Assembly: GCA_015232645.1 (NCBI GenBank)
Contig: JADFZF010000004.1
Location: 1-42,930 of the forward strand
Source of the DNA: Magnetococcales bacterium
GTDB lineage: Bacteria > Pseudomonadota > Magnetococcia > Magnetococcales > UBA8363
Direction of reading: 5' to 3'
Length of the DNA stretch: 42,930 bases
Position 1 is the first letter of the stretch, and each line of letters starts with the position of its first letter. The notes beneath the pieces were generated by a model. The model was not told the origin of the DNA. It searched no databases and was given only the letters and a program-made list of their open reading frames with translations. The position numbers were made by a program, and so were the translations under genes. This document shows, one piece after another, positions 15,475-42,323 of this stretch.

Positions 15475-15576
15475 CACGTCCTTACCCTTCCGCGGCAAGG
15501 CGTATGTGTCCTGAATAATGACAACGACAACAATGCAGGCCGTCTCTCAAGGTCGGGAAACAAGGGCTGAGGAATC

Positions 15577-18273: not shown

Positions 18274-18284
18274 GGAGAGCTTCC

Positions 18285-21200
18285 ATGCCATGGATTGATG
18301 ACCAAGCGCGGACCGAGGCGCTGGATGTTACCCGTTCGTTTGTCGTCCAGGCGCCGGCGGGATCCGGGAAAACGGGATTGTTGACGCAAAGAATATTGGC
18401 GTTATTGGGGGAGGTTGGGGATCCGGAGGAGGTGGTGGCCATTACGTTCACCCGCAAGGCGGCTGCGGAAATGAAAGGACGGGTATTGCAGGCGTTGACG
18501 CAGGCCGATGGCGGCTGTCCCGAGGATTCATTTGGACAAAAAAATTGGCAGTTGGCCCGTCGGGTGCTGGAACGGGATCGGGAGCATCGCTGGGGTCTGC
18601 GGGACAATCCCAATCGTTTACGCATCATGACCATCGATGCCTTGTGTCACGCCATCGTGCGCCAATTGCCGGTATTGACCGAGTTGGGGGGGCGGGCAGA
18701 GTTGTCGGAATATCCCGATTTTTTATATCGGCAGGCGGCACGGGATACGTTGGATGTGTTTACCGTGCAACATCCATGGGCCTGGGCGGTGCAGCGGTTG
18801 TTCACACATCTGGACAATGATTGGGGCAGGATTGAATCCATGCTGGCCGAGTTGTTGGCGCACAGGGATCAATGGTTGCGGCATGTGGCCACAGGCGACG
18901 ACAGCACGCTGCGACAGAGGATGGACCAAACCCTTCGAGCCTGGATCGGCATGGAGTTGAAGGCCTTGCATGCCTTTTTCCCGGAGGGTGTCTGGCCCGA
19001 GGTTGGGGCCATCATGGATTTTTCTGGACGGATGAAGTCGTCCGGTACCGGATCGGCCTCCCCCTGGATCGGGCGGATGGCCCCCCCCGGGTTCGATGGC
19101 GTCGATGTGGCGTTATGGCATGAACTGGCAGCCACCCTGTTGACCAGTGAGGGAATGTGGCGCAGACGCTGGGATGTGAAGACCGGTTTTCCTCCCAGGT
19201 CAAAGGCGGGCTCCAAACAGGAAGGGGAGCAATGGGAAACCATGAAACAACGGGTTGCGGCGTTGGTGGCGCAACTTGAAGGTCAGGAAGAGACCCGTGA
19301 TTCATTGCATCGGGTGCGGCACCTGCCTTTGGATCCCTATTCTCAGGAACAGTGGGAAATATTGCAGGCGTTGCTGATGTTGCTCAAAGTGGCGGCGGGG
19401 CATCTGATGGTCGGGTTTGCCGAGCATGAATCGGTGGATCATGGAGAAGTGACCCGCCGGGCCATCATGGCATTGGGGTCGGTCGATGCCCCTTCCGATC
19501 TGGCATTGCGTTTGGATCATCGTCTGCGCCATCTCCTGGTGGACGAATTCCAGGACACGTCGCGGGTGCAGTTTGAATTGTTGCAGCGGTTGGTATCGGG
19601 GTGGGAACCGGGTGGAGGAAATACCGTATTTCTGGTCGGCGATCCCATGCAATCGATCTATCGTTTTCGTGAAGCGGAGGTGGCGCTGTTTTTACAGGTC
19701 CAACAGCAGGGGATCGGTACGGTGCTGACCGAGTCCCTGTTTTTGGAGGTCAATTTTCGGTCTGTCCCGGGCATTGTCGCGTGGGTGAACGATACCATGC
19801 CGTTGGTGTTTCCCCGGGTACCGCGACCGGAGACGGGGGCGATACCCTATAAGGCTTCCAGTTCTTCTCGGAAGGTCAGCCAGGACAGAGCGGTGGAGTT
19901 GCATGCATGCCTCGACCGCGACCTGGAAGCGCAACAGGCGATCGCCTTGGCGGCGGCAGCCCGAAAGGCCGGTGCCAGCGTCTGCATCCTGGCACGGGCC
20001 AGGAGTCATCTGACCCATATATTAAACGGTTTGCATGAGAAAAAATTACGCTTTCAGGCGGTGGAATTGTATCCCTTGGCCGGGCTGCCGGTCATTCAGG
20101 ATTTGCTGGCCTTGACGCGAGCCTTGATTCACCCGGCTGACCGCATTGCCTGGCTGGCCATTTTGAGGGCCCCCTGGTGCGGGTTGTCGCTTGCTGATCT
20201 TGATGTCCTGGGACGATGGAATCCTGACGTTGATATGCGCGAGGTGATCAATCATCCTGGGGTGGATTCCTGTTTATCGACATCGGGCCGGATCGTTTTG
20301 TCACGGGTCCGTCCGGTTTTGAATCGAGCATGGCTGGAACGGGGGCGATGGGAGCCGTTTCCAGGACCTGGATCGTTGCGGCGTTGGGTGGAGGCGACCT
20401 GGAGGCAATTGGGAGGAGCTGCCACCCTGCCAAGCATCGGACATCTGGAGAGTGTGGAGCAATTTTTCGCCCTCCTGGAAAAGTTGGAAGTTCAGGGGGA
20501 ACCGTTGGACATCGATACGTTGTCGGACCGGGTATCGACCCTCTATTCGGGTACGGATCCGGACGCCGATCCTGAACTGGTGTTGATGACCATCCACAAG
20601 GCCAAAGGGTTGGAATTTGATTGTGTCATCATTCCCGGCCTGGATCGGGCCCCACGCTTCGACGAAAAGCGGTTATTATTATGGACCGACCCCCCCCTTC
20701 AGAACGAAGAGAATTCCGATGGAGAGGGTTTGGCTCCGCTTCTGGCTCCCATAGGACGTCTGGATGGCGATGAAGAGGATCCAATCTACCAGTTGGTGCG
20801 GCAAATGGATCGGGAAAAATCACGTCATGAGGTGAGTCGGTTGTTGTACGTTGCGGTCACCCGGGCCAAGCGGCAGCTTCATCTTCTGGGTCTGACCCAG
20901 GAGGAGGGGAGCAAACCGGCCAATGGATCTTTTCTGGCAGCGGTCTGGCCGGCGGTTCAGGAAGCCTTTACTCAGGGGAATCAGACCGATTATGGCTCCA
21001 AAGCGTCGCCGCCGCGGAGGGACAGGGTTGGTCTGCGTCTCCACCATGCTTGGCAGATGCCGCCCTTACCTCCCACAGTGGTCGCCGCCCCCATCCGGGC
21101 GGTCGAAGCGGAAGATCCCATCGTTTTTGATTGGGTTGGTCATGAATCCCGACTGTTGGGAACCGTTATGCATCGTTTTCTTGCGCTCATCGCCTCGGAG

Positions 21201-21686
21201 GGGGTGGCGGCGTGGTCCCTCAACCGAATCGAGGGCAGTCGAAAGCTGTTTCGGCGCCATTTGCAGGAGGTTGGTATGTCGCAACGATCCATCGAGGGAG
21301 CGCAGAAGCTTTTGGTTCGGGGATTGGGGGCAGCGGTCAGTTCAGGAGTTGGCCGTTGGTTATTGGATGGTCGGCATCAAGATGCACAATCGGAATGGGG
21401 CTTGACGGGTGACATAAGTGAACGTATAGTAAGTGTCAGCATCGACCGATCCTTTGTGGATCGGAAGGGGGTGCGTTGGATCGTCGATTACAAGACCAGC
21501 CAGCATGAGGGTGGAGACCGGGACGAATTTTTGGCCAATGAAAGAGTTCGCTATCGACAACAGTTGCACCTCTACGCCCGATTGGTCAGCGCCATGGAAG
21601 ATCGTCCCATTCATCTGGGACTCTATTTTCCGCTGATGGATGCCTGGTTGGCATGGCCATGGGAAGGGAGTCATGCCGGAGAATGA
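18285..21686 (+). CDS. AddA-like UvrD/Rep-family helicase-nuclease
   Basis: The 1133-residue product is a superfamily 1 helicase of the AddA/RecB type that would process DNA ends for recombination with its AddB-like partner. Helicase motifs appear in order: Walker A QAPAGSGKT (residues 22-30), ITFTRKAAAEM, the DEAD-like VDEFQDTSRVQ, GDPMQSIYRFR, the VNFRS motif, TIHKAKGLEF and the motif VI YVAVTRAKRQL. The C-terminal RecB-like nuclease shows VDYKTS. ATG 18285 is chosen because GAGGAG lies seven bases upstream; a GTG at 18270 would add five residues. It converges on cheV with a 15-base gap. Confidence 0.9.
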   Translation: MPWIDDQARTEALDVTRSFVVQAPAGSGKTGLLTQRILALLGEVGDPEEVVAITFTRKAAAEMKGRVLQALTQADGGCPEDSFGQKNWQLARRVLERDREHRWGLRDNPNRLRIMTIDALCHAIVRQLPVLTELGGRAELSEYPDFLYRQAARDTLDVFTVQHPWAWAVQRLFTHLDNDWGRIESMLAELLAHRDQWLRHVATGDDSTLRQRMDQTLRAWIGMELKALHAFFPEGVWPEVGAIMDFSGRMKSSGTGSASPWIGRMAPPGFDGVDVALWHELAATLLTSEGMWRRRWDVKTGFPPRSKAGSKQEGEQWETMKQRVAALVAQLEGQEETRDSLHRVRHLPLDPYSQEQWEILQALLMLLKVAAGHLMVGFAEHESVDHGEVTRRAIMALGSVDAPSDLALRLDHRLRHLLVDEFQDTSRVQFELLQRLVSGWEPGGGNTVFLVGDPMQSIYRFREAEVALFLQVQQQGIGTVLTESLFLEVNFRSVPGIVAWVNDTMPLVFPRVPRPETGAIPYKASSSSRKVSQDRAVELHACLDRDLEAQQAIALAAAARKAGASVCILARARSHLTHILNGLHEKKLRFQAVELYPLAGLPVIQDLLALTRALIHPADRIAWLAILRAPWCGLSLADLDVLGRWNPDVDMREVINHPGVDSCLSTSGRIVLSRVRPVLNRAWLERGRWEPFPGPGSLRRWVEATWRQLGGAATLPSIGHLESVEQFFALLEKLEVQGEPLDIDTLSDRVSTLYSGTDPDADPELVLMTIHKAKGLEFDCVIIPGLDRAPRFDEKRLLLWTDPPLQNEENSDGEGLAPLLAPIGRLDGDEEDPIYQLVRQMDREKSRHEVSRLLYVAVTRAKRQLHLLGLTQEEGSKPANGSFLAAVWPAVQEAFTQGNQTDYGSKASPPRRDRVGLRLHHAWQMPPLPPTVVAAPIRAVEAEDPIVFDWVGHESRLLGTVMHRFLALIASEGVAAWSLNRIEGSRKLFRRHLQEVGMSQRSIEGAQKLLVRGLGAAVSSGVGRWLLDGRHQDAQSEWGLTGDISERIVSVSIDRSFVDRKGVRWIVDYKTSQHEGGDRDEFLANERVRYRQQLHLYARLVSAMEDRPIHLGLYFPLMDAWLAWPWEGSHAGE

Positions 21687-21701
21687 TTGGCTCAGGAGGA
21701 T

Positions 21702-22640
21702 TCATGAGTCAGATTTTTCCAGCCATTTCAACACCAGAGTGGCAATGGAATTGGCCTGATATTTGGGGATGAAGTCGTCGGCCCCCATCTCGATGGCCTT
21801 GAGGCGGTTGGATTCGTTGCTCATGGAGCTGTGCAGGGCGATGGGGATGGATGAAAGACGGGTATCTGTCTGTTTTTTCAACGATTTAGCGAAGGTGAAG
21901 CCATCCATGCCCGGCATTTCGATATCGGAAATGATCAAACCGTAGGGTGGTGAGGATTGCGATTCATAAATTTGCATGATATGCGCAAATGCGGCGGTTG
22001 CGGAATCGAACGATTCAAAAGGTGCCCCCAGTTGTTGCAAAGTTTTTTCAATCTGATTACGGGCTGATTTGGAATCGTCGGCAAGGAGAATTTTGAAGCG
22101 GGATATGTCCACCTGGCGTCCCTTGGCGAGGATATCATCGGCGATGATATCGTCGGCGCCTATGATTTCACTCAATATTTTTTCAATATCCAAAATTTGA
22201 ATGGCATCGCCATTTTTTTCATAGGTCAGGGCGGTGAGGTAGGCCGATTCCTGAAATGAACTTCCCGGGCTTTTGATATCCTGCCAGCTCCGGGTGATGA
22301 GTTTATTGGGTTGGCTCACCAGGAGTCCCTGGATCATGCCGCTGTATTCGCAAACGATGATATAGCTGAGTTCTTTGGAATAATTGACGGGTTGCATGTT
22401 GAGGGCGATACTGATATCGATGACGGTGACGACCTTGCCGCGAAAATCGATGGCGCCGACGATGGCGGGGCTTGTTTGCGGGATCTGAGTGACTTCCTTG
22501 GGCGTCTCGATCACTTCGATGATTTTGAAGACATTGATGCCATATTGTTGTTTGTCGGTTAAAAAGAATGTGAGCATTTCCATCTGGTTTGAAAACGCAA
22601 GGTTCGCCCTTTGGGAAATTTCATCCAGCATATTTTCCAT
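21702..22640 (-). CDS. cheV: Chemotaxis coupling protein CheV (CheW-REC)
   Basis: CheV couples chemoreceptors to CheA like CheW but adds a phosphorylatable receiver that tunes adaptation. The 312-residue product has a CheW-like domain at about residues 20-165 (YGINVFKIIEVIE, GAIDFRGKVVTVIDI) and a receiver domain at about 182-310. The receiver has the acidic pair D188-D189, the phosphoacceptor D239 (LIISDIEMPGMDG) and K293 (FIPKY). GAGGGA lies upstream of ATG 22640. No other chemotaxis gene is adjacent except cheR about 3.7 kb away. The domain architecture is unambiguous. Confidence 0.93.
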   Translation of the reverse strand: MENMLDEISQRANLAFSNQMEMLTFFLTDKQQYGINVFKIIEVIETPKEVTQIPQTSPAIVGAIDFRGKVVTVIDISIALNMQPVNYSKELSYIIVCEYSGMIQGLLVSQPNKLITRSWQDIKSPGSSFQESAYLTALTYEKNGDAIQILDIEKILSEIIGADDIIADDILAKGRQVDISRFKILLADDSKSARNQIEKTLQQLGAPFESFDSATAAFAHIMQIYESQSSPPYGLIISDIEMPGMDGFTFAKSLKKQTDTRLSSIPIALHSSMSNESNRLKAIEMGADDFIPKYQANSIATLVLKWLEKSDS

Positions 22641-22850
22641 CGTGTTCCCTCACTTTGTGTGATGTGTATGGCGTGTATCCAAGGGTCGGAGAAGGGGAGC
22701 GAGGGTATTACGCAGCCCCGGCTCCGATGGTCAGGGTGTATGCATAGGACTGCATCCGACTGTTGATGGCATCCAAGTGCGTTGGCGATCGGCGACGGGT
22801 TTGTCGAGTTTATATTGGCATTTTAGCATAATAGTCACAAGTAATACAGT

Positions 22851-23525
22851 TTATCTCAGAGTCACGGAGGACAAGGAGGAGAGGTCGTGCCATAGGCCGT
22901 GGGCACCAGGGAGATGGGGGAGGATGAGGAGAATGGCCAGGTAGACGCCGATGGTCGGGATCGGGTCGGAGCTTTTAAGTTTGAGAGCGCTCCCCAGGGA
23001 ATGGCGGATGCCAGAGAGGCCAAGCAGATTGAAGCTGGTGATTTCGTCGAGGAGCAGATGAAGCAGGTAGCCGAGGCCGAGGAAACAGCCGCCCAGCCAG
23101 GCCAGGCGATCGGACCAGGCCAGCGAGTGATACAGCAGCAGGACGGTGATCAAACCTCCCAGTGCTGCCGCCGGAATGGAATGAAAGATACCTCGATGGG
23201 TCGTCAGGCGGGTGATGAGGGCGAAGACGGTCAATTTGCAGAAGAGAAAGCAGCCTGACCAGAGGGCGACGAGTTCCAGGGAGTTGTAATGGCTGGTTTG
23301 ACTGAACATGACCAGGGAGGCGATGATCATGGCCGCCAGGGTCATTCCAAAGGCAAGCGGGGTCGAATGATCGGCGTCGATATCGGGCAGGATCCCTCCC
23401 AAGGTGGTCAGGAAGAGACCGACGAGGAGGCCATGAGGTTCGATGAGGTGTCCCTGGAGCAAAGTGGTTCCCACCAGGCCTCCCAGAGTGGCCGAAGTGA
23501 TGAAATGCAACCGGAAACCGGCCAT
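22851..23525 (-). CDS. Membrane metal-dependent hydrolase, DUF457/YdjM family
   Basis: The 224-residue product is an integral membrane protein of the DUF457 (YdjM-like) metal-dependent hydrolase family; its substrate is unknown. Family-type polar motifs lie between five or six hydrophobic segments: LHFITSA at the N-terminus, GGILPDIDADHS near residue 45, the THRGIFHSIPAA segment near 110 and LHLLLDEITSFN near 160. AAGGA lies six bases upstream of ATG 23525; the longer frame to 23633 would run into the previous gene. It follows the Memo/AMMECR1 gene after 14 bases, so the two share an operon, although no functional link is known. Confidence 0.85.
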   Translation of the reverse strand: MAGFRLHFITSATLGGLVGTTLLQGHLIEPHGLLVGLFLTTLGGILPDIDADHSTPLAFGMTLAAMIIASLVMFSQTSHYNSLELVALWSGCFLFCKLTVFALITRLTTHRGIFHSIPAAALGGLITVLLLYHSLAWSDRLAWLGGCFLGLGYLLHLLLDEITSFNLLGLSGIRHSLGSALKLKSSDPIPTIGVYLAILLILPHLPGAHGLWHDLSSLSSVTLR

Positions 23526-23539
23526 GATTATCCTTTCCG

Positions 23540-24952
23540 TTACTCTTTGGATTCTTTGATTTTGGTGACCGTATAGACCTGGATACCGGGATGACGTTGC
23601 CAGCATTGGCCATCCAGACCCGCCTTCTGGCATAAATTGGTCAAAAATGTAATTTTGTCAGGTAGTTGTTCCCACACCTGGGGGAGAAAAGTGGCGCGTC
23701 TGTTTCCCAGGGACAGGATGACGCCATGGATGCCCGGTTTGAGTTGGTTGAGGAGATCCTGAGTTCCCTGGTAGGGCATGGGAACCGCAGGGGTCAGGAT
23801 GGAAACTTCCAGCAGGACCTCATCCAACTCCTGACGCAGGAGAGGTCGAAACCGGGGATCGTGGACAGCGGCGGCCTGGGCATTCTCCAGCAGGTCATCC
23901 AGCAGGGTTCGATGGGCCTCCAGGGAACCGATACACCCACGCAATCGTCCTTTTTTGGTCAATGTGACAAAGCAGGCCCCGGTCTGCGACAACGGTGGGA
24001 AATCCTGCTGCAGTTGTTTTCGGTCGATGGAGGTGGAGTTTCCCTCGAGGAAATGCTCCAGGTGGGTCCGGGCCAGTCCCGGAAGGAGTTCCAGCCGGAA
24101 GGGACTGGAAACGGGGGGAGAGTCCGATGTTTCGGGAGGTCGATCCGAGGTTTGGGTGGGTGGATGAAAGACGTAACTGGCGTAACCGACGACCCGGTTT
24201 TTATCCCCGGCGGTATCACCGGAGTTGCGATAGTCGACGAGGCTGGAATGCCATCGGTGACGTCGGCTTAATTCCAACAGGGCGGAGATGCCCTTATTGC
24301 CGCAAGCTTCGCATTTTTCCAGGGATTTGGGATCGCCGGAAGCGATGGCGGAGTGACATTGGGCATCCAGATGCCGAGCCTGGTCGTAAGGAAAATAATG
24401 GGACAGATCCGAAGAGATGATCAACAGGTCCTGGGGATGCCAAACCTGGGTCAGGATATCGGCCAGGTGTCCACCGCTGATGTCACCGTAGATCATGGGA
24501 ACCAGGTTAAAATTTTTCAGGGTTTCCTGGAGGAAGGGCAGCTGGACCTCCAGGGAGTGTTCATGGTGGTGTGCAGCGGCATCGGTGCTGACGTCGGGAA
24601 GCCTGGCCAGGTGGTCCACGGTTTCCTGATGGATGGGAACCAATCCCAACGGGGTGGCATAGGCGGAATAGTGGCCGACCGAAATACCCTCCTGATAGGC
24701 TCTGTGGGAGGGGGCGAGGATGAAAACTCTCTGGGGGCGCAGGGGGGGAGCGGGTTTGAGGTGGCGGAATCCGTGGGCAGCGGTCAGACCCGAATAGATG
24801 TAACCGGCGTGGGGAACCACCAAAGCCACCGGGGGAAGTGTCTGGGGGGCCTCGACCTGGCTGAGGAAATCTTGCACCATTTTTTTTAATGTTCCTGGAT
24901 CCTTGGGATAGAAGGTGCCAGCGACGGCGGGTTGTCTGACAGGTCGATCCAT
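23540..24952 (-). CDS. Fused AmmeMemoRadiSam protein B (Memo) and A (AMMECR1)
   Basis: The 470-residue product joins two domains usually encoded separately. Residues 1 to about 270 are Memo-like, related to LigB-type extradiol dioxygenases: QPAVAGTFYP at the start, PHAGYIYSG at 47-55, LAPSHRAY, the HHHEHSLEVQLPFLQ segment and CEACGNKG. Residues about 290-470 are AMMECR1-like, with ACFVTLTKKGRLRGCIGSLE and HDPRFRPL. A proline/serine-rich linker joins them. The third member of this gene set, a radical SAM protein, is not in the window. ATG 24952 (GGAG about eight bases upstream) gives the typical Memo start. The biochemical role remains unproven. Confidence 0.9.
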   Translation of the reverse strand: MDRPVRQPAVAGTFYPKDPGTLKKMVQDFLSQVEAPQTLPPVALVVPHAGYIYSGLTAAHGFRHLKPAPPLRPQRVFILAPSHRAYQEGISVGHYSAYATPLGLVPIHQETVDHLARLPDVSTDAAAHHHEHSLEVQLPFLQETLKNFNLVPMIYGDISGGHLADILTQVWHPQDLLIISSDLSHYFPYDQARHLDAQCHSAIASGDPKSLEKCEACGNKGISALLELSRRHRWHSSLVDYRNSGDTAGDKNRVVGYASYVFHPPTQTSDRPPETSDSPPVSSPFRLELLPGLARTHLEHFLEGNSTSIDRKQLQQDFPPLSQTGACFVTLTKKGRLRGCIGSLEAHRTLLDDLLENAQAAAVHDPRFRPLLRQELDEVLLEVSILTPAVPMPYQGTQDLLNQLKPGIHGVILSLGNRRATFLPQVWEQLPDKITFLTNLCQKAGLDGQCWQRHPGIQVYTVTKIKESKE

Positions 24953-25277
24953 GATGGTTACTCCATGATCCAGGTCTCGGGGAATGCGGCCTTCACGGTC
25001 CGTGAGGGCAGGGGATCGGTGGTCATGCGGTATCCCATGCAAGTGGCGTGCAACCAAATCAATGGTCACCGCCCAAGCCTTCCAGAAAGAAAATTGCGCA
25101 TGGGGCTGCAAAGGTGGGGTCGAAATTTAACATCAAGGAGCAGGTTGGATGGTGATTTTATTCATGATTGGAATGGGCCCAAGGATCAACCTCGTGTGCG
25201 GCAACCCGGGAGCGGTCTAATTTTCGGTTGGCGATGGGAGCGAGAGGAAATTGAAAACGATCTGATAGACGCTGATA

Positions 25278-35184: not shown

Positions 35185-35616
35185 TCAGGAGGGATAAAGG
35201 TAGAACGCCATGGCGTAGACGACCAATCCTGAAACACAGACGAACAACCAGATGGATAAGGTCAACGGGGCGATGCTGACGTGAGCCGACCAACGGCCGC
35301 GCCAAGCCCTGAAAACCGTTTTGGGAACCAGGTACGCCACCGCCAGGGCGGCAAGGACATGCGAAGCAAGCAGGGAAAAATAAACCGGACGTACCCATCC
35401 GTGCCCGGCAAACGGTACATGGCCGACGATGGCATGGTAGACCAGGTACAAAACCAGAAAGATCATTCCAATGAGCAAAGCCAGGGCCATCAACAGTCGG
35501 TGCTGTTCCTCCCGTCCCGAGCGAATGGCCCAATAAGCTGGAACCAGGGTCAATACCCCAGCCAGATTCAGTCCCGCCAGGCAATGGGGCAATGTTGTGA
35601 CGAAATCATTGCTCAT
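35185..35616 (-). CDS. DUF420 family membrane protein
   Basis: The 143-residue product has four hydrophobic segments and matches the DUF420 family, whose members lie near cytochrome oxidase genes (YozB/CtaM in Bacillus). Typical features are HRLLMALALLIGMIFLVLYL, the YHAIVGHVPFAGHGWVRPVYF loop with conserved histidines, and SHVLAALAVAYLVPKTVFRA. It is the last gene of the sco-pccA-DUF420 unit, 56 bases after pccA. A role in oxidase assembly is inferred from this context. No strong ribosome-binding site precedes ATG 35616. Confidence 0.85.
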   Translation of the reverse strand: MSNDFVTTLPHCLAGLNLAGVLTLVPAYWAIRSGREEQHRLLMALALLIGMIFLVLYLVYHAIVGHVPFAGHGWVRPVYFSLLASHVLAALAVAYLVPKTVFRAWRGRWSAHVSIAPLTLSIWLFVCVSGLVVYAMAFYLYPS

Positions 35617-35672
35617 GATGTTTCAACCCGAGAGAAAATGGATCAATTGACAAGACCCCGCCGCGGTACGGA

Positions 35673-36176
35673 TCAGTGCATGTCATGGTGGGATCCATGA
35701 TGGTCCATAGGCTCGGGGGAATGTTGGTGAGATTCGGCCGCATCCCCATCGGCTTTTTTGACCATGGCTTGCACATCGAGGCGGATGCCATCATTGAAGG
35801 TCAGGGAAAGAGGCACCGAATCCCCCTCGCGGATGGCCAACTGGGGGTTGATGAGCATCAGGTGAAGGCCACCCGGTTTCAAGGAGACTTTCTTTCCGGA
35901 AGGGATGGGAAGATCCTTGTGGGGTACCATGGCTGCCATGTCGTGGGTATGGGTGGATTCGTGGATCTCGACTTTAGCAAACTTTGGACTTTGAATCTGG
36001 ACAAGAGTCATATCGACTTTGGCGTCATTCTGGATATCCATGTAGGCGGCCAAAGTTTGTACCGTGGGTGGTGCAGCCATCACCCAAGGGTTGATGATCC
36101 GGACGGACTCATCCGCATAAGCCGCAAGGGCCACCAAGCCAACCAGCAAGCCGACCAGCTGAGAAAATTTTTTCAT
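35673..36176 (-). CDS. Periplasmic copper chaperone PCuAC
   Basis: PCuAC-type proteins deliver Cu(I) to the CuA centre of cytochrome oxidase in the periplasm. The 167-residue product begins with a signal peptide (MKKFSQLVGLLVGLVALAAYA). The copper site is complete: H72, M83, H105 and M107, exactly H-x10-M-x21-H-x-M. The C-terminus is rich in histidine and methionine (SHQHSPEPMDHHGSHHDMH), a likely extra copper-binding tail. Its start overlaps the stop of the sco gene (ATGA at 36173-36176), so the two are translationally coupled. Confidence 0.93.
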   Translation of the reverse strand: MKKFSQLVGLLVGLVALAAYADESVRIINPWVMAAPPTVQTLAAYMDIQNDAKVDMTLVQIQSPKFAKVEIHESTHTHDMAAMVPHKDLPIPSGKKVSLKPGGLHLMLINPQLAIREGDSVPLSLTFNDGIRLDVQAMVKKADGDAAESHQHSPEPMDHHGSHHDMH

Positions 36177-36859
36177 GTCCTACCATCCTTTTGTGTTTGT
36201 TCGCCATAAGATTTCATCATCTCGAGAAAGTAGGAGACAATTTTATCGGCGTTATGGAATTGCGGTTGAAACAGAGCGTGGAATCGGCCGTCGGGATCGA
36301 CCAGGTAGATCCCCGAGGAGTGAGATATGAGATAGGAACCATCCGTTTCGGGAGCTGAAAGACGATACGCCACCCCCAATGAGTCGGTCAAGCTTTTGAT
36401 ATTGTCGTCATCTCCGGTAACGCCGATGAAGTCCTTATAAAAATAAACGACAAAATTCTTCAGAGACTCGGGTTGATCCCGCTTGGCGTCGACGCTGACG
36501 AATACCCCCTGAATGGACTTCAGAACCTGAGGATGTTTTTCGAGCTTTTTGAAGACATCCGCCATCAAGCCCATGGTCACCGGGCAGATGTCCGGACAAT
36601 GGGTGTAGCCAAAGAACAGGAAACTCCATTTTCCACGGAAACGCGCCTTGTCGAAAGTTTTCCCCAAGTGATCGGTCAGAAGAAAGTCAGGGAGGTCCCG
36701 GGGCGATGGCAGGACCACCCCCAAAAGGTCCTTGGGAATCTCTTTTTGGTTCAGAAAGGATTTCAAACCTGCACGCAGTCCAAGGAAGGCGAGGCCGCCG
36801 ATCAGGATGGCCAGCAGGACCATTTTTGCCTCGGGGGGCAATTTTTTGAAAAGAGACAT
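36173..36859 (-). CDS. SCO1/SenC family copper-binding protein
   Basis: Sco proteins are membrane-anchored thioredoxin-fold proteins that help insert copper into cytochrome oxidase. From ATG 36859 the product is 228 residues with one membrane helix at about 13-32 (MVLLAILIGGLAFLGLRAGL). The copper ligands are C88 and C92 in GYTHCPDICP and H180 in LISHSSGIYLVDP. A GTG at 36871 would add four residues; neither start has a clear ribosome-binding site. It heads the sco-pccA-DUF420 operon. No oxidase subunit gene is in the window. Confidence 0.93.
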   Translation of the reverse strand: MSLFKKLPPEAKMVLLAILIGGLAFLGLRAGLKSFLNQKEIPKDLLGVVLPSPRDLPDFLLTDHLGKTFDKARFRGKWSFLFFGYTHCPDICPVTMGLMADVFKKLEKHPQVLKSIQGVFVSVDAKRDQPESLKNFVVYFYKDFIGVTGDDDNIKSLTDSLGVAYRLSAPETDGSYLISHSSGIYLVDPDGRFHALFQPQFHNADKIVSYFLEMMKSYGEQTQKDGRT

Positions 36860-37009
36860 GTTGGATTTCACAATTTTAGAATTGGACTTGTCATCAGCCT
36901 ATAAATATTTTAGATTCGTCTCCGTTGCAAGTCGTCAAATGAGACTTTGGTACCCGTAATGGTACCAGTCAACCTCGTTTTTCCTCCAGACTTTTTGCAG
37001 GAGAAAGCC

Positions 37010-37567
37010 GTGAGCAAAGCTTCCCTGGAAGCCACCGTGGATCCAGAAAAGGTCCATGGCTGGATTACCCAAATCGGATCGGACTCATCCGCAGCCGTTC
37101 CCCTACTCCAAGCCATCCAGAGTGAATATGGCTACCTTCCACGGAAGGCCATGAATCTGGTACTCGAAAACACCGAGATCAATGCCAGCCAATTGTTCGG
37201 CGTTGCGACATTTTATGCTCAGTTTCGGCTCGACCCTGTCGGTCGCCACTTGATCAAGGTATGTCACGGCACCGCCTGCCACGTCCAGGGGGCTGATCGG
37301 CTCAATACCTCTCTGCGTCATGCTCTGGGCATCGTTGACGAAAAAGAGGATACCGCATCCAACGGCAGCTATACCATCGAAAACGTCGCCTGCATCGGTT
37401 GCTGCAGTCTGGCACCGGTCATGTTGATCGATGGAGAGGCCTTTCCCAACCTCAAGGGGGCTGATGCCCAAAAACACTTGGTCAAGCACGCCAAAACCAA
37501 AGGTGAAATCCTCCCTGGTCATGCCGGCGAAGGCGACGACCAACCCGCCGACGAGAAGGAGAAGTAA
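37010..37567 (+). CDS. NuoE-like [2Fe-2S] subunit of a NAD(P)-linked oxidoreductase
   Basis: The 185-residue product belongs to the NuoE/HoxE/FdsG family, thioredoxin-like proteins that carry one [2Fe-2S] cluster. The ligands are C85 and C90 (CHGTACHVQG) and C128 and C132 (CIGCCSLAPV). The helical N-terminus has LLQAIQSEYGYLPRKAMNLV and the QLFGVATFYAQF segment typical of the family. GTG 37010 is preferred since GGAGA lies upstream and the sequence then begins MSKASLEATV; an earlier in-frame ATG at 36947 would add an unlikely 21 residues. It is the first gene of a three-gene redox operon and lies two bases before the NuoF-like gene. Confidence 0.9.
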   Translation: MSKASLEATVDPEKVHGWITQIGSDSSAAVPLLQAIQSEYGYLPRKAMNLVLENTEINASQLFGVATFYAQFRLDPVGRHLIKVCHGTACHVQGADRLNTSLRHALGIVDEKEDTASNGSYTIENVACIGCCSLAPVMLIDGEAFPNLKGADAQKHLVKHAKTKGEILPGHAGEGDDQPADEKEK

Positions 37568-37569
37568 AC

Positions 37570-39345
37570 ATGAGCGGTGACATGGTCATAACAGTGGGTG
37601 AGGGAACCTGTGGCGTTGCTGCGGGAGCTCCGGAGATTACCAAACTCTTGAAAGAACGGTTTCCCCAGGCGCAATTCAAACAGGTGGGCTGTATTGGCAT
37701 GTGCCACCTGGAAGTCATGGTGGAAATTTCCACCGGCGGCAAGAGCTACCTGTGGGGCGGCCTCAACAAGAAAAACCTCCCCAAGGTGGTCCGCTTCCAC
37801 CGCGGGCAGGGAGATCTCCCCGAATCGATGTTGATCCGTTCCACCGATCAACAGCAAACGGAACGGTCCGATTATCTCACCAAACAAACCCGCATCGCCT
37901 TGCGCAACGTCGGACAACTCAACCCCATCTCCATGGACCAGTTTCGTGCCCGTGGGGGGTATAGCGCCATTGAAAAGGTCATCAAGGGGGGGATGACTCC
38001 CGAACAGGTCATTGAAGAGGTGAAAATATCCTCCATCCGCGGTCGGGGTGGCGCCGGTTTCCCCACCGCCACCAAATGGACATTCGCCCGCGGCGCCCCG
38101 GGAGAACCGAAATACCTGGTGTGCAATGGCGACGAAGGCGATCCTGGTGCCTTCATGGATCGCTCGCTTCTGGAAGGAGATCCCCACTCCGTGGTCGAAG
38201 GGATGCTCATCGCCGCCTATGCCATCGGCGCCTCCAAGGGTTATGCCTACATCCGCGCTGAATATCCCCTGGCACTCAAACATTTTGCCATTGCCCTGGA
38301 CGACGCTCGCAAGGCCGGGTTCCTCGGCTACAAGATCCTGGGATCCAACTTTTCTTTTGATATCAAAATCAAGGAAGGGGCCGGAGCCTTCGTCTGCGGT
38401 GAGGAGACGGCGCTGCTGGCCTCCATCGAAGGACAACGCGGCATGCCCAGAATCCGGCCGCCGTTCCCAGCCATCCAGGGTGTGTTCGGCAAACCGACCA
38501 TCATCAACAACGTCGAAACCCTGGCCAACATCCCCTGGATCCTCCTCAACGGCGGTGCCGCCTACGCCAAGATCGGTACCGAAAAGAGTCGAGGAACCAA
38601 AGTGTTCGCCCTGGCCGGCGCCATCAAACGCGGTGGTCTGGTGGAAGTCCCCATGGGGATGAGTATCCGCCAACTCCTCATGGAGATCGGTGGAGGTTCC
38701 GCTTCAGGGCGTCCCCTCAAGGCGGTCCAATTGGGGGGGCCTTCGGGCGGGTGTATCCCCGAATCGATGTTCGATACCATCATCGATTATGATGCCATCA
38801 ACGCCACCGGAGCCATCATGGGCTCGGGAGGTATGGTGGTGACCGATACCAAATCGTGCATGGTCGACCTGGCGCGGTTCTTCCTGGAGTTCACCCAGAT
38901 CGAATCGTGCGGCAAATGTACCTTCTGCCGCATCGGTACCTTGCGCATGAAGGAACTCCTCACCAAAATCTGCGAGGGCCACGGCACTCTGGAAGATATC
39001 GACACCTTGGCTGAACTTGCCGATCGCATCAAGGATGCCAGTCTTTGCGGCCTCGGGCAGACCGCTCCCAATCCGGTATTGACAACCCTTAAATATTTCC
39101 GCGATGAATACATCGCGCACGTTACCGATAAACGTTGCCCGGGCGGAGTCTGCAAGGGTCTGATCACACACACCATCATGCAGGATAAATGTACCGGGTG
39201 TTCCATCTGTGATCGTTATTGCCCGGTCAACGCCATAACGGGTGAACTGAAAAAACCAAACACCTGGGTCATCGACAAGAAAATCTGCATCAACTGCGGG
39301 ATGTGTGTCGAGGTCTGCAACCCTGACGCCATTCTGGCGGCTTGA
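37570..39345 (+). CDS. NuoF/HydB-like NAD(H)- and FMN-binding iron-sulfur subunit
   Basis: The 591-residue product is the flavin subunit of a NAD(H)-linked enzyme. An N-terminal thioredoxin-like domain (GTCGVAAGA, then GCIGMCHLEV) is followed by the NuoF core: NAD-binding GRGGAGFPTATKW from residue 158, FMN-binding CNGDEGDPGAFMDRSLLEGD, and the N3-type [4Fe-4S] site SCGKCTFCRIG (from C447) with a later SLCGLGQTAPNP. The C-terminus adds two ferredoxin clusters, CTGCSICDRYCP (from C541) and CINCGMCVEVCNP. This architecture is that of HydB and NADP-reducing hydrogenase subunits, not of respiratory NuoF. It overlaps the next upstream TTG but the real start of the following gene is 39363. Confidence 0.93.
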   Translation: MSGDMVITVGEGTCGVAAGAPEITKLLKERFPQAQFKQVGCIGMCHLEVMVEISTGGKSYLWGGLNKKNLPKVVRFHRGQGDLPESMLIRSTDQQQTERSDYLTKQTRIALRNVGQLNPISMDQFRARGGYSAIEKVIKGGMTPEQVIEEVKISSIRGRGGAGFPTATKWTFARGAPGEPKYLVCNGDEGDPGAFMDRSLLEGDPHSVVEGMLIAAYAIGASKGYAYIRAEYPLALKHFAIALDDARKAGFLGYKILGSNFSFDIKIKEGAGAFVCGEETALLASIEGQRGMPRIRPPFPAIQGVFGKPTIINNVETLANIPWILLNGGAAYAKIGTEKSRGTKVFALAGAIKRGGLVEVPMGMSIRQLLMEIGGGSASGRPLKAVQLGGPSGGCIPESMFDTIIDYDAINATGAIMGSGGMVVTDTKSCMVDLARFFLEFTQIESCGKCTFCRIGTLRMKELLTKICEGHGTLEDIDTLAELADRIKDASLCGLGQTAPNPVLTTLKYFRDEYIAHVTDKRCPGGVCKGLITHTIMQDKCTGCSICDRYCPVNAITGELKKPNTWVIDKKICINCGMCVEVCNPDAILAA

Positions 39346-39362
39346 ACCGGAGAGACAGCCTT

Positions 39363-42323
39363 ATGGAAACCACCGTTCCCATCATTCTAAACGGTCGCGC
39401 CATCGACGCCAAAGCTGGTGCCACCATACGAGAGGTCGCTGAAGCCCAGGGAATTAAAATTCCCACCTTCTGTCACGACAATCGTCTGAAACCTTTTGCT
39501 TCCTGTTTCTTGTGTGTGGTTGAAGTCAAGGGAGCCCGGACACTGCTGCCCGCTTGTTCGACGCGCGTGGCCCCCAAGATGGAAATCTTCACCGACAACG
39601 ATAAAGTCGCAACATCGCGCAAAATGGCGCTGGATCTGCTTTTGTCCGATCATGCCGGCGACTGTATCGCCCCGTGCGAAGCCACCTGCCCCGCCAACAT
39701 CGATATCCAGGGATACATCGCCCATATCGCCAATGGTGATTTTGCCGGGGCGGTGCATTTGATCAAAAAACGTAACCCACTTCCCGTCGTCTGCGGTCGC
39801 ATTTGCCCCCATCCTTGTGAATCTCAATGTCGACGTGCCTTGGTGGACGAACCGATCGCCATCAACCCCCTCAAGAGGTTTTCGTCGGAGTATGAACTGG
39901 AACACGGTCCGTTTGTCCCGCAGGCCGGTCCCGATTCCGGCAAGAAAGTGGCCATCATAGGGGGGGGACCGGCCGGGTTGTCGGCCGCTTACTTCCTGCG
40001 CCAGTCGGGGCATGCCGTGGAAATCTTCGAGGCCTTGCCGGAACTGGGTGGTATGGCCCGATATGGTATTCCGCGATTTCGGTTGCCCTGGGACGTCATG
40101 GATCGGGAAATCAAGGCCATCCTGGACCTGGGAGTCAAGGTCCACTTCAACAGCAAGCTGGGCGATCATTTCACCTTGGCCGATCTGAAACGTCAGGGCT
40201 TTTCCGCCATATTGATCGCCATCGGTGCTCACAAATCCAAACCCATGCACATCGAGAACGAAAACGTTCCCGGGGTGATGGGAGGGATCGATTTTTTACG
40301 CAAGGTCGTCCTCAAGGAACCGGTGAATGTTGGCAAGAGAGTCGCGGTTCTGGGGGGGGGCGATACGGCCATGGACTGCTGCCGGGTTGCCCTTCGTTTG
40401 GGCGCCCAGGTCACCTTGTTGTATCGTCGTACCCAGGCGGAAATGCCTTCTTCACCCTGGGAGCAGGAAGAAGCCCATGAAGAAGGGGTTGAATTTCGTT
40501 TTCTTACCGCCCCATCGGCCGTGGTTCTAGACGAAAAAGGTCATGCCAAGGCGCTGCGGGTGATCACCATGGAACTGGGTGAGCCTGACGCTTCCGGACG
40601 CCGGCGCCCGGTTCCCATCGAAAACAGCGAGGAGGATTTGGAATTCGACCTGATCATTCCTGCCATCGGTCAGGATCCCGATCTGTCCTGTCTTGCCAAG
40701 GACGATGTCAAACCCCAGACCACCAAGTGGAATACCGTCGTCCATGATGCCAAAACCATGGTCAGTACCATGGAGGGGGTGTTCACGGCGGGTGACTGTG
40801 CCTTTGGTCCCGATATCCTCATCCGCGCCATCGGCGAAGGGCGTAAGGCGGCCGAGGCCATTAACCTTTATCTCAGTGGTGTCGAGGTAAGAATCATCCA
40901 ACCCTATGCCATTTCCAGAGGTCGGTTGAAGGAACTCGATTCTGCCGATTTTGCCCCACGCTTCGTCCACAAAAAACGCGCCCTGGAGACCACTCTGCCA
41001 CCCGAGCAGCGCCTCAGGAACGATTCGGGTTGGGCTCCCATCAACATCGGTCTGGATCAGATTCAGGCCATGGCCGAGGCGACCCGTTGTATCGAATGCG
41101 GGTGTAACGCTCGTTTTGATTGCGATCTGCGCAATTTTTCTACCCTGTACAACGCCACCGAGAAACGGCTTTCGGGTGACAAGCGTTCGTATGAAGAGGA
41201 CAAGCGTCATCCCCTCATCCGTATCGAGTCGGACAAGTGCATTACTTGCGCCTCCTGTGTCCGTATCTGTAGCGAGATCCGTAATATCAATGCTTTGACC
41301 TTCATCAAACGGGGATTCAACACTCGTATTGGGCCCAACTTCAACGATCCCCTTCAGGAGACCGGTTGCGATGCCTGTGGTATGTGTACCGATGTCTGTC
41401 CGACAGGAACCCTTGCCCCCAATACCGGCAAGGAATGTGGCCCCTGGATCTGGAACGAGACCATCAGCACCTGTACCGATTGTTCCAGGGGTTGTGGAAT
41501 CAAGGTAGCGGTCAATCGCAACCGTATCGTCAAGATACAGTCGGTCAATTCCGATCCCGTGAACGGAGCGGTCATTTGTGCCGAAGGGCGTTTTGGATAC
41601 CAGTTACTGACCAAGCGGGTGGACCGGGATAACGATACGGCTATCCAAAAAGGGCGGGAACTGTTGGCCCAAGGTGGTAAGATTGCCGTTCTGGTCTCTC
41701 CCAAGGTGACTGTTGAGGAAGCGTATGCCGCAGCCCGTGTGGCAAAACGGTACGGTGGGCGGTTGCACTGGGTCGAAGGTATCTCCATTCACGGTTCCAG
41801 CAAACCCGCTGGCAAAATGCGGGGCGAGGCCAACGTGGCGTTGTTGAGCCGTCTCGGAGCCACGAGCTGGAAAGGCGATGCCGCCGACATTTTCATCACC
41901 GTCAACTTGTCCGATCTGCCACCCAAATCGGCATCCAGTCGTGTTATCTCCTTGAATTCCCATGGTAGCCAGGATGACGTCAGCATTGCCATCACCATCG
42001 CCGACCCATTGGAAACCAGCGGGACATTTTTAAACCGCGACAGCGAGCTGTGCGTACTCAACACCACCCTGGTCAACGCCGGTGTCCCCACAGGGTTTGG
42101 TGCTCTGATGCGTTTGTGCGGCGAGGATGGATTGGCCGATCTCGAGGCGTTACGTCAGGCGTTGGTGGGAGAGTATCAGGAACTGTCTGCCCTGACCCAG
42201 ATCAACGGTCATCGGCTGATCAAAACCAATGTGGCACCGGTTCTGGTGGCGGCATCGCCAGATACTCGTGAAGCCGCCTTTGCCCTGCATATGAAACAGA
42301 TGGAATTGCCCTGGTCCATCTGA
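39363..42323 (+). CDS. NuoG/GltD-type fusion: ferredoxin, FAD-NAD(P) oxidoreductase, truncated molybdopterin domain
   Basis: This 986-residue protein fuses several redox modules. Residues 1-75 are a [2Fe-2S] domain (C37, C48, C51, C65). Cysteines 101, 105, 109 and CGRICPHPCESQC at 144-156 are the GltD-type [4Fe-4S] region. A FAD-binding IIGGGPAGLSAAYFL starts at 198, and a second NAD(P) Rossmann motif, VLGGGDTAMDCC, starts near 328. After GltD-like AGDCAFGPDILIRAI come CITCASCVRIC and CDACGMCTDVCP ferredoxin sites, then a [4Fe-4S] motif CTDCSRGC of molybdopterin oxidoreductases. The remaining 200 residues look like an eroded NuoG catalytic domain, too short for a cofactor-binding catalytic unit. 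GGAGAG precedes ATG 39363. It is transcribed with the NuoE- and NuoF-like genes. Confidence 0.9.
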   Translation: METTVPIILNGRAIDAKAGATIREVAEAQGIKIPTFCHDNRLKPFASCFLCVVEVKGARTLLPACSTRVAPKMEIFTDNDKVATSRKMALDLLLSDHAGDCIAPCEATCPANIDIQGYIAHIANGDFAGAVHLIKKRNPLPVVCGRICPHPCESQCRRALVDEPIAINPLKRFSSEYELEHGPFVPQAGPDSGKKVAIIGGGPAGLSAAYFLRQSGHAVEIFEALPELGGMARYGIPRFRLPWDVMDREIKAILDLGVKVHFNSKLGDHFTLADLKRQGFSAILIAIGAHKSKPMHIENENVPGVMGGIDFLRKVVLKEPVNVGKRVAVLGGGDTAMDCCRVALRLGAQVTLLYRRTQAEMPSSPWEQEEAHEEGVEFRFLTAPSAVVLDEKGHAKALRVITMELGEPDASGRRRPVPIENSEEDLEFDLIIPAIGQDPDLSCLAKDDVKPQTTKWNTVVHDAKTMVSTMEGVFTAGDCAFGPDILIRAIGEGRKAAEAINLYLSGVEVRIIQPYAISRGRLKELDSADFAPRFVHKKRALETTLPPEQRLRNDSGWAPINIGLDQIQAMAEATRCIECGCNARFDCDLRNFSTLYNATEKRLSGDKRSYEEDKRHPLIRIESDKCITCASCVRICSEIRNINALTFIKRGFNTRIGPNFNDPLQETGCDACGMCTDVCPTGTLAPNTGKECGPWIWNETISTCTDCSRGCGIKVAVNRNRIVKIQSVNSDPVNGAVICAEGRFGYQLLTKRVDRDNDTAIQKGRELLAQGGKIAVLVSPKVTVEEAYAAARVAKRYGGRLHWVEGISIHGSSKPAGKMRGEANVALLSRLGATSWKGDAADIFITVNLSDLPPKSASSRVISLNSHGSQDDVSIAITIADPLETSGTFLNRDSELCVLNTTLVNAGVPTGFGALMRLCGEDGLADLEALRQALVGEYQELSALTQINGHRLIKTNVAPVLVAASPDTREAAFALHMKQMELPWSI

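Follow-up and report, generated by a model that had tools for sequence, protein, structure and literature searches.

A probable Stn-type (Type 1 Nfn-Bfu) ferredoxin-dependent transhydrogenase operon in a magnetotactic coccus of the Magnetococcales

Near the end of contig JADFZF010000004.1 (Magnetococcales assembly GCA_015232645.1), which was analysed over its whole 42,930 nucleotides and is called the window hereafter, three genes adjoin on the plus strand: a NuoE-like gene, a HydB/NuoF-like gene and a 993-codon fusion, named stnA, stnB and stnC in the following. The three open reading frames of a preliminary description of this DNA, including its NuoE-like subunit, were recovered and the start it gave for stnB was kept, but its TTG starts for stnA (36947) and stnC (39342) were moved downstream. 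Thus, stnA probably starts at GTG 37010, which is preceded by AGGAG, rather than at the earlier TTG, which would give 206 amino acids (aa), while stnC probably starts at ATG 39363 (M8), this methionine being invariant in the 20 rows of StnC alignment A1 and having GGAGAG upstream. StnC residue numbers count from TTG 39342, that is, in the 993-codon frame. With the preferred starts the genes are spaced by 2 and 17 base pairs (bp); promoter- and terminator-like sites occurred at near-chance frequency (6 vs a mean of 3.1, and 9 vs 6.9).

37010..37567, plus strand: stnA-like gene (BfuC/HydC/NuoE), thioredoxin-like [2Fe-2S] subunit, 185 aa (Pfam PF01257, 2Fe-2S_thioredx, 5e-40)
37570..39345, plus strand: stnB-like gene (BfuB/HydB/NuoF), subunit for flavin mononucleotide (FMN) and nicotinamide adenine dinucleotide (NAD(H)), 591 aa (PDB matches; Pfam Complex1_51K, NADH_4Fe-4S, Fer4, SLBB)
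39363..42323, plus strand: stnC-like fusion (BfuA of Nfn type), 986 aa (Pfam Fer2_4, Fer4_20, Pyr_redox_2, Fer4_Nqo3, Molybdop_Fe4S4)

The StnA translation contains C-x4-C and C-x3-C motifs, the first of which is the motif of NuoE-type domains. The cysteines of StnB were compared over 48 StnB rows, including the 28 rows of the window's clade in the tree described below, and its two terminal domains are as follows.

37570..37869, plus strand: StnB N-terminal thioredoxin-like domain, with C14, C41 and C45 only (these three in 48/48 rows)
39172..39333, plus strand: StnB C-terminal 2x[4Fe-4S] domain, residues 535-588, putative ferredoxin docking site (Pfam Fer4/Fer4_7)

All eight cysteines of the C-terminal sets (C541/544/547/551 and C573/576/579/583) are present in 48/48 rows. 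A HydB-type NuoF with extra clusters at both ends had been described; this held for the complete C-terminal pair but not for the N-terminus, where the [2Fe-2S] cluster B5 of BfuB was not found, only the three cysteines being there, and the domain probably carries no cluster. The solved Stn/NfnABC StnB chains show the same three cysteines, and the structure paper on Sporomusa Stn lists no N-terminal cluster in StnB (PMC10482914); therefore, the missing B5 sets Stn apart from HydB and not the window from Stn. In the core, the cluster set C447/450/453/493 is present, and C430, C468, H517, C523 and C528 fall in line with C438, C476, H525, C531 and C536, the ligands of B2 in 7t2r_B (NiFe-Bfu), following the pattern Cys, Cys/Thr, His, Cys, Cys.

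The third protein had been described as a NuoG-type ferredoxin fused to a GltD/NfnB-like oxidoreductase and to further ferredoxin sites, and all these domains were found by Pfam. StnC alignments A1 (20 rows) and A3 (55 rows) were used; a further alignment, A4, has 27 rows.

39369..39653, plus strand: NuoG/HydA-type N-terminal [2Fe-2S] domain, residues 10-104 (Fer2_4 2e-15; C44, C55, C58, C72 invariant)
39654..40886, plus strand: GltD/NfnB-like domain with two cluster motifs and Rossmann folds for flavin adenine dinucleotide (FAD) and the NAD phosphate NADP(H), residues 105-515 (Fer4_20 7e-23, Pyr_redox_2 2e-33)
39792..39794, plus strand: C151, four residues before C155-x3-C159-x3-C163 (A3 comparison)
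39873..39875, plus strand: K178, equivalent to K170 of Sporomusa StnC, beside the FAD-proximal cluster (invariant in 20/20 rows)
40080..40082, plus strand: R247, equivalent to R239 of Sporomusa StnC (invariant in the 55 A3 rows)
41088..41123, plus strand: cysteine set C583, C586, C588, C594 (Cys in 48/48 rows)
41211..41417, plus strand: NuoG-type 2x[4Fe-4S], residues 624-692 (Fer4_Nqo3 2e-8; eight cysteines invariant in 20/20 rows)
41460..41609, plus strand: molybdopterin-type [4Fe-4S], residues 707-756, with C711, C714, C718 and C746 (Molybdop_Fe4S4 1e-11; invariant in 20/20)
41613..42320, plus strand: shortened FdhF/NuoG-like tail with no detectable molybdopterin domain, residues 758-993 (profile match to 8oh5_C)

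The StnC motif cysteines (C44/55/58/72; H104 with C108/112/116; C155/159/163; C583/586/588/594; C633/636/639/643; C676/679/682/686; C711/714/718/746) are all invariant in the 20 A1 rows and in the 28 clade rows. The preliminary description had made its reading depend on conservation of the FAD/NADP site, and these residues are conserved, GGGDTA (338-343) and R362 R363 being present in 19/19 Magnetococcales rows. The motif holding the FAD-proximal cluster is assigned as in GltD-type proteins. A Glu-ligated proximal cluster of the NfnAB type was not found, K178 standing there instead, whereas Glu occupies this site in two paralogues encoded by this genome, one of them NfnBA-like and the other a GltD-like protein of 634 codons, perhaps DsrL. 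R247 is not Stn-specific, because both paralogues also have Arg there. NfnB is reported to have Glu at the K170 site (PMC10482914).

An eroded molybdopterin-type tail had also been proposed for StnC, a view that agrees with the present results. Residues 758-993 gave no Pfam match, and the tail profile matches Sporomusa StnC at a whole-sequence E of 1.3e-7 in two blocks, 8oh5_C 776-807 and 1033-1111, which are in order and individually weak (0.04 and 0.07). Between them lie 225 residues in Sporomusa and 67 profile positions here, some 158 fewer, the entire tail measuring 236 residues vs about 440 in the solved enzymes. By this profile, it is an FdhF-like tail shortened between the blocks. Averaged over 19 relatives, it is 49% identical to the window, vs 76-81% in the Fer2, GltD and 516-705 segments. 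A Firmicutes member (L059) keeps a Molybdopterin-domain match at 2e-39, while the window has none. Gene order, domains, cysteine motifs and key residues are in this way established, as is purifying selection: the ratio of nonsynonymous to synonymous rates (dN/dS; Nei-Gojobori, two relatives) is 0.02-0.08 for StnA, StnB and the StnC core and 0.11-0.15 for the StnC tail, at dS values of 0.8-1.7, partly near saturation. The operon is therefore more than chance.

When compared with solved structures, the three subunits had the same Stn/NfnABC complexes ranking above hydrogenases and complex I, as the likeness to StnABC noted from the outset had implied: 9n5u_C, 8oh5_A and 9bov_C for StnA; 9bov_B (3e-234), 8oh5_B (5e-231) and 9n5u_B (8e-229) for StnB; and 9bov_A (3e-202), 9n5u_A (2e-179) and 8oh5_C (6e-178) for StnC. 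The predicted fold of StnC is likewise established, the AlphaFold2 model built from 55 related sequences (predicted local distance difference test, pLDDT, 88.8; predicted template modelling score, pTM, 0.79) superposing on 8oh5_C and 9bov_A with TM-scores of 0.85 and 0.84 by query length and 0.72 by target length. A first model, from 20 close sequences, was discarded (pLDDT 59.6; top four Foldseek matches at TM 0.26).

StnABC of Sporomusa ovata (PDB 8oh5/8oh9; PMC10482914) shares the gene trio, the StnC domain order, the seven-cluster cysteine motifs, the K170/R239 equivalents, the StnB ligands and the three-cysteine StnB N-terminus. It differs in a StnC of 1172 aa, vs 986-993 aa in the window, where the tail is shorter and has no detectable molybdopterin domain, C114 is replaced by Ile, a further cysteine (C151) appears and the host is proteobacterial. 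The closest solved sequence for StnB and StnC is NfnABC of Caldicellulosiruptor saccharolyticus (9bov/9bp5), although its chain, of 1178 aa, is long-tailed and has Cys where Sporomusa has C114, with Ile at 151. In Thermococcus sibiricus, NfnABC (Nfn-Bfu; 9n5u/9n5v) also has a short StnC (963 aa), and the same reaction has been demonstrated for it (PMC9304861); however, this archaeal chain has lost NuoG-type cluster cysteines kept in the window and carries Val at the C114 position and Leu at 151. NfnAB of Pyrococcus and Thermotoga (5jca, 4ylf) has the same net reaction and the GltD fold, but lacks the HydBC-type core, bifurcates at FAD and carries Glu at the proximal cluster where Stn has Lys (PMC10482914).

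The domains of the Bfu core are all present (FMN domain, NADH_4Fe-4S, SLBB and C-terminal 2x[4Fe-4S] in BfuB; thioredoxin-like [2Fe-2S] in BfuC), BfuA is fused to a GltD-like FAD/NADP(H) domain within a three-gene operon, as in Stn or Type 1 Nfn-Bfu enzymes, and a Pfam scan found no NfnA (FNR-like) partner in the operon. Given that the seven StnC cluster motifs, the HydB-type core and the NADP motif are retained together with K178 and R247, the product of the operon is probably a soluble ferredoxin-dependent transhydrogenase of the Stn type (Type 1 Nfn-Bfu), belonging to a magnetotactic coccus. It is a well-supported member of the Stn/Nfn-Bfu family with an unexpected but coherent set of hosts; the enzyme type is already known, the Magnetococcales host and some details being new.

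Cofactors, activity, reversibility and ferredoxin partner are those that we infer from characterised relatives. NADPH would deliver its electrons to the FAD of the StnC GltD domain, from which they would pass singly through the clusters of StnC and reach the StnB FMN. At this site they would be split with the help of the StnB [2Fe-2S] cluster and of the StnA [2Fe-2S] cluster, the latter serving as a moving gate, NAD+ being reduced at FMN and ferredoxin (Fd) at the StnB C-terminal 2x[4Fe-4S], or would be merged in the reverse direction:

2 NADPH + NAD+ + 2 Fd(ox) <-> 2 NADP+ + NADH + H+ + 2 Fd(red)

It is the reaction catalysed by the enzymes of Sporomusa and Thermococcus (PMC10482914, PMC9304861). 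The proposal of a unit linking NADH, NADPH and ferredoxin in a proteobacterium is thus supported, its activity being predicted by homology, and the enzyme would most likely adjust these three pools. FMN and FAD had both been named as ingredients of bifurcation; this is maintained for the FMN site but not for the GltD FAD, since in Sporomusa Stn bifurcation takes place at FMN and its neighbouring clusters in StnAB and the FAD only relays NADPH electrons (PMC10482914). By homology, the bifurcating flavin would be the FMN of StnB and not the FAD of StnC.

The distribution of the operon was surveyed in 48 Magnetococcales genomes, 27 of them with a completeness of 90% or more and a contamination of 5% or less. 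StnC occurs in 30 (28 full length; in G030 and G009 the contig ends within the gene) and in 19 of the 27 better genomes, StnB being found in the same 30; StnC is absent from the three genomes of family f12 and from 12 of the 18 of family f7. The relatives at 82-89% StnC identity are Magnetococcales metagenome-assembled genomes (MAGs) such as HA3dbin1 and DCbin4. Outside the order, near-full-length homologues (loci L038, L042, L046 and L049-L056) were found in Chromatiales, Sulfuricella and Rhodocyclaceae MAGs, two Lambdaproteobacteria, a Deltaproteobacteria-labelled MAG, an unclassified MAG (contig end at residue 840) and Bdellovibrio/Oligoflexia MAGs. Among 398 sampled Pseudomonadota searched at E 1e-130, the StnC form of about 990 aa appeared only in Magnetococcales (29 genomes), a sample in which G009, with its contig end, fell below the threshold and the beta- and gammaproteobacterial MAGs of the contig scan were also missed.

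A StnB tree was built from those 47 of 80 loci in which the two genes were largely intact, to which the window and its genome's complex I NuoF were added. In this tree 28 rows, including the window, form one clade (99/100) together with Lambdaproteobacteria, Bdellovibrionota and one gamma- and one betaproteobacterial MAG. The window's group of five rows is supported at 100/100 and the Sulfuricella MAG falls inside the rows of the order (92/97). Rows assignable to families f1, f9 and f7 each group together, a pattern that fits mainly vertical descent of Stn in the order, with losses.

The search also brought up relatives with other architectures. Nine of the 398 Pseudomonadota carry a longer fusion of about 1400 codons (frames 1387-1511; L111:7815-11993 and L112 are examples). 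One that was scanned holds Fer2, GltD, Fer4, a complete molybdopterin oxidoreductase (PF00384, PF01568) and the Stn lysine, and no StnA or StnB match was found in two regions around such fusions, which are possibly formate/NADP enzymes. In loci L091-L107 (e.g. L097:3341-7635), mostly of Planctomycetota, BfuC and BfuB are fused, as one frame of about 800 aa in 14/17, and the StnC-like partner has 520-610 aa, matching the window in 14/17 in two blocks that skip residues of about 300-430. This partner seems to have lost the NADP-binding fold, whose absence Pfam confirms in L097, and R247 is kept in one of four rows of the group. Among 21 loci with BfuC-BfuB fusions (16 of these 17 and five others), a membrane-type 4Fe-4S protein was found in 13 and a family with a pyrroloquinoline quinone (PQQ)-propeller representative in 15; L091-L107 might perhaps represent a membrane-linked Bfu enzyme with a different third substrate. 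Tail-less StnC-like proteins of about 680-710 aa (L064, L066-L069, L071-L073, L075-L078, L080, L083-L086 and L090), mostly from Acidobacteriota, Verrucomicrobiota and Planctomycetota, show His at the position of the Stn lysine in 16 of 18 A3 rows (Thr in L086, Lys in L090), and nine tabulated rows have lost cysteines of the second NuoG-type cluster.

With respect to metabolism, reduced ferredoxin is consumed in the order by 2-oxoacid:ferredoxin oxidoreductases, and in some of its members by nitrogenase as well. Counted at family cut-offs, RnfC was found in 38/48 genomes, PntB in 36/48, NifH in 21/48, the formate dehydrogenase (Fdh) alpha subunit in 17/48, TIGR03710 (2-oxoacid:acceptor oxidoreductase alpha) in 44/48 and PF16114 (ATP-citrate lyase domain) in 35/48; outside the order, 11 carriers were searched for PF16114 and seven had it. 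In the window's genome, which is 74% complete, RnfC and NifH exceed the cut-offs. PntB is missing from 10/30 carriers vs 2/18 non-carriers, a difference that is suggestive only. A link of Stn to type II ATP-citrate lyase in the window's genus was rejected, the citrate-binding domain being found in none of its eight genomes (G000-G007); five of these are at least 95% complete, so this absence is not mere incompleteness. PMC6783814 likewise describes five MAGs of the HA3dbin1/DCbin4 group as lacking ATP-citrate lyase.

The Fdh counts bear on the idea that this is a Bfu enzyme linked to formate or hydrogen, with its catalytic subunit encoded elsewhere, which would agree with the descent of the StnC tail from a molybdopterin oxidoreductase and with the 13 of 30 carriers having Fdh alpha over the cut-off (a fourteenth, in G034, is cut short and falls below it). 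The other 17, including the window's genome (74% complete), show no Fdh alpha over the cut-off, the fusion has no detectable molybdopterin domain, and [FeFe]-hydrogenase (PF02906) was found in 0/48 genomes, NiFe-hydrogenase not being searched for. Constant co-occurrence with either catalytic subunit, which had been named as a possible refutation of a free-standing enzyme, is hence not what the survey returned; the gene distribution already speaks against such a link, and we regard this explanation as extremely improbable.

Many freshwater Magnetococcales are credited with sulfur oxidation, CO2 fixation by the ferredoxin-consuming reductive tricarboxylic acid (rTCA) cycle and in part nif genes in PMC6783814, whose main text contains no word beginning with ferredoxin, transhydrogenase or Rnf. 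In this context, a NADPH-dependent sulfur or polysulfide oxidoreductase like the homologous Nso complex of Thermococcus litoralis might be considered, relatives in the order being credited with sulfur oxidation (PMC7483475, PMC6783814). Nevertheless, Nso itself may be a ferredoxin transhydrogenase, as suggested in PMC7483475, no sulfur-specific Pfam domain was found in the three proteins and no sulfur gene among the neighbouring genes scanned, so that this possibility appears very unlikely. For other sulfur oxidisers with the rTCA cycle, the Flx-Hdr bifurcating complex, Pnt and Rnf have been proposed to feed the cycle (PMC6315080), and the Stn-type enzyme could fill a role like that of Flx-Hdr here. 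The picture is complicated, however, by the fused NfnBA-like gene of the window's genome and by the lack of ATP-citrate lyase in its genus.

Several points weigh against the Stn assignment. It draws on homology, the members of the clade being known from sequence alone. The genome's own complex I NuoF, aligned as a control, shares C430, H517 and C523 with StnB; these are thus not diagnostic, which weakens the B2 argument: only C468, C528 and the C-terminal domain separate StnB from this NuoF, whose 441-codon frame carries Glu at the C468 site and stops short of C528 and of the C-terminal clusters. C114 of Sporomusa is not kept, its equivalent being I122 in 20/20 A1 rows, and the tail, by which the Stn tetramer is held together and which is required for assembly in Sporomusa, is reduced in length and poorly conserved here. 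At the genome level, PntB, Fdh, ATP-citrate lyase and TIGR03710 were not found over the cut-offs in the window's own, 74% complete genome, and Stn shows no significant association with PntB, RnfC, NifH, Fdh alpha or ATP-citrate lyase (Fisher tests ignoring relatedness; 30 carriers vs 18 non-carriers; lowest p 0.136). Finally, a NfnBA-like match of about 970 codons occurs in all eight genomes of the genus (identity checked in one), and Stn and Nfn are nearly mutually exclusive in acetogens (PMC7483475).

In the window's genome, the NfnBA-like gene lies on contig C382 (L113:4742-12689), where a PFOR-like gene of 1680 aa is followed after 34 bp by the fused NfnBA-like gene of 956 aa (NF009415 over the cut-off), a possible PFOR-Nfn unit. 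The suggestion of a stand-alone enzyme fits the operon, but Stn is therefore not the sole candidate ferredoxin-linked transhydrogenase of this genome.

The ligands shared with NuoF also speak for a non-bifurcating NADPH:NAD+ or NADPH:acceptor oxidoreductase, in which StnC would feed StnB and the ferredoxin branch would be idle. Divergently upstream of stn lie SCO1, PCuAC and DUF420 genes (window 35185-36871; Pfam), presumably cytochrome oxidase assembly factors, and of the 19 Magnetococcales loci that include upstream flank, 10 have SCO1 and/or PCuAC close to stn; moreover, magnetotactic cocci are microaerophilic. The order is credited with nitrate respiration (PMC6783814), and Stn itself has a side NADPH:NAD+ activity (PMC10482914). 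On the other hand, the cysteines of the C-terminal 2x[4Fe-4S] and C528 are present in 28/28 clade rows, and C468, the only one of the StnB ligand positions to vary in these rows, remains Cys in 25 (two rows have Ser and one a gap, all of the Lambda group), whereas non-bifurcating homologues lack clusters B2-B5 (PMC9304861). A non-bifurcating enzyme is consequently considered improbable, and the Stn-type transhydrogenase is preferred.

Elsewhere in the window (13795-25111), a PD-(D/E)XK protein and a UvrD-type helicase form an adjacent, AddAB-like pair, and a TPR protein with a peptidoglycan-binding domain and a Memo-AMMECR1 fusion were also observed.

Besides its tail, the branch has a second clade-specific feature in C151. 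In A3, whose 30 clade rows comprise 27 of the tree clade and L037, L046 and L050, placed by similarity (57-66% to the window), it is Cys in 31 of 55 rows, namely these 30 and L070, and Ile or Leu in the remaining 24, as in the three solved Stn/NfnABC chains. The C114 position is Ile in 26 of the clade rows and Val in four; C114 is not strictly conserved in the Stn family, two homologues having Val or Ile (PMC10482914). Our hypothesis is that C151 lies near the FAD-proximal cluster and replaces C114. In its widest form, the proteobacterial and bdellovibrionotal Stn branch would have re-tuned this cluster, the C114 thiol that alternates with K170 being lost and the invariant C151 substituting for it, and would have cut the tail to a NuoG-like remnant; in freshwater magnetotactic cocci, sulfur oxidisers respiring nitrate or oxygen, it would turn NADPH obtained from the proton-motive force into reduced ferredoxin for CO2 fixation. 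Taken as a whole this is a speculative and rather doubtful scenario.

Electron-bifurcating transhydrogenases have been discussed chiefly for anaerobes, acetogens among them (PMC7483475), and no title or abstract opening returned by the literature searches describes Stn or bifurcation in Magnetococcales, which does not prove absence from print. The natural variant found here, with a short tail and C151 instead of C114, may be useful to probe the roles of the lysine-ligated cluster of Stn and of the remnant domain. If active, the enzyme would add a soluble valve between NADPH, NADH and ferredoxin to the metabolism of the Magnetococcales.

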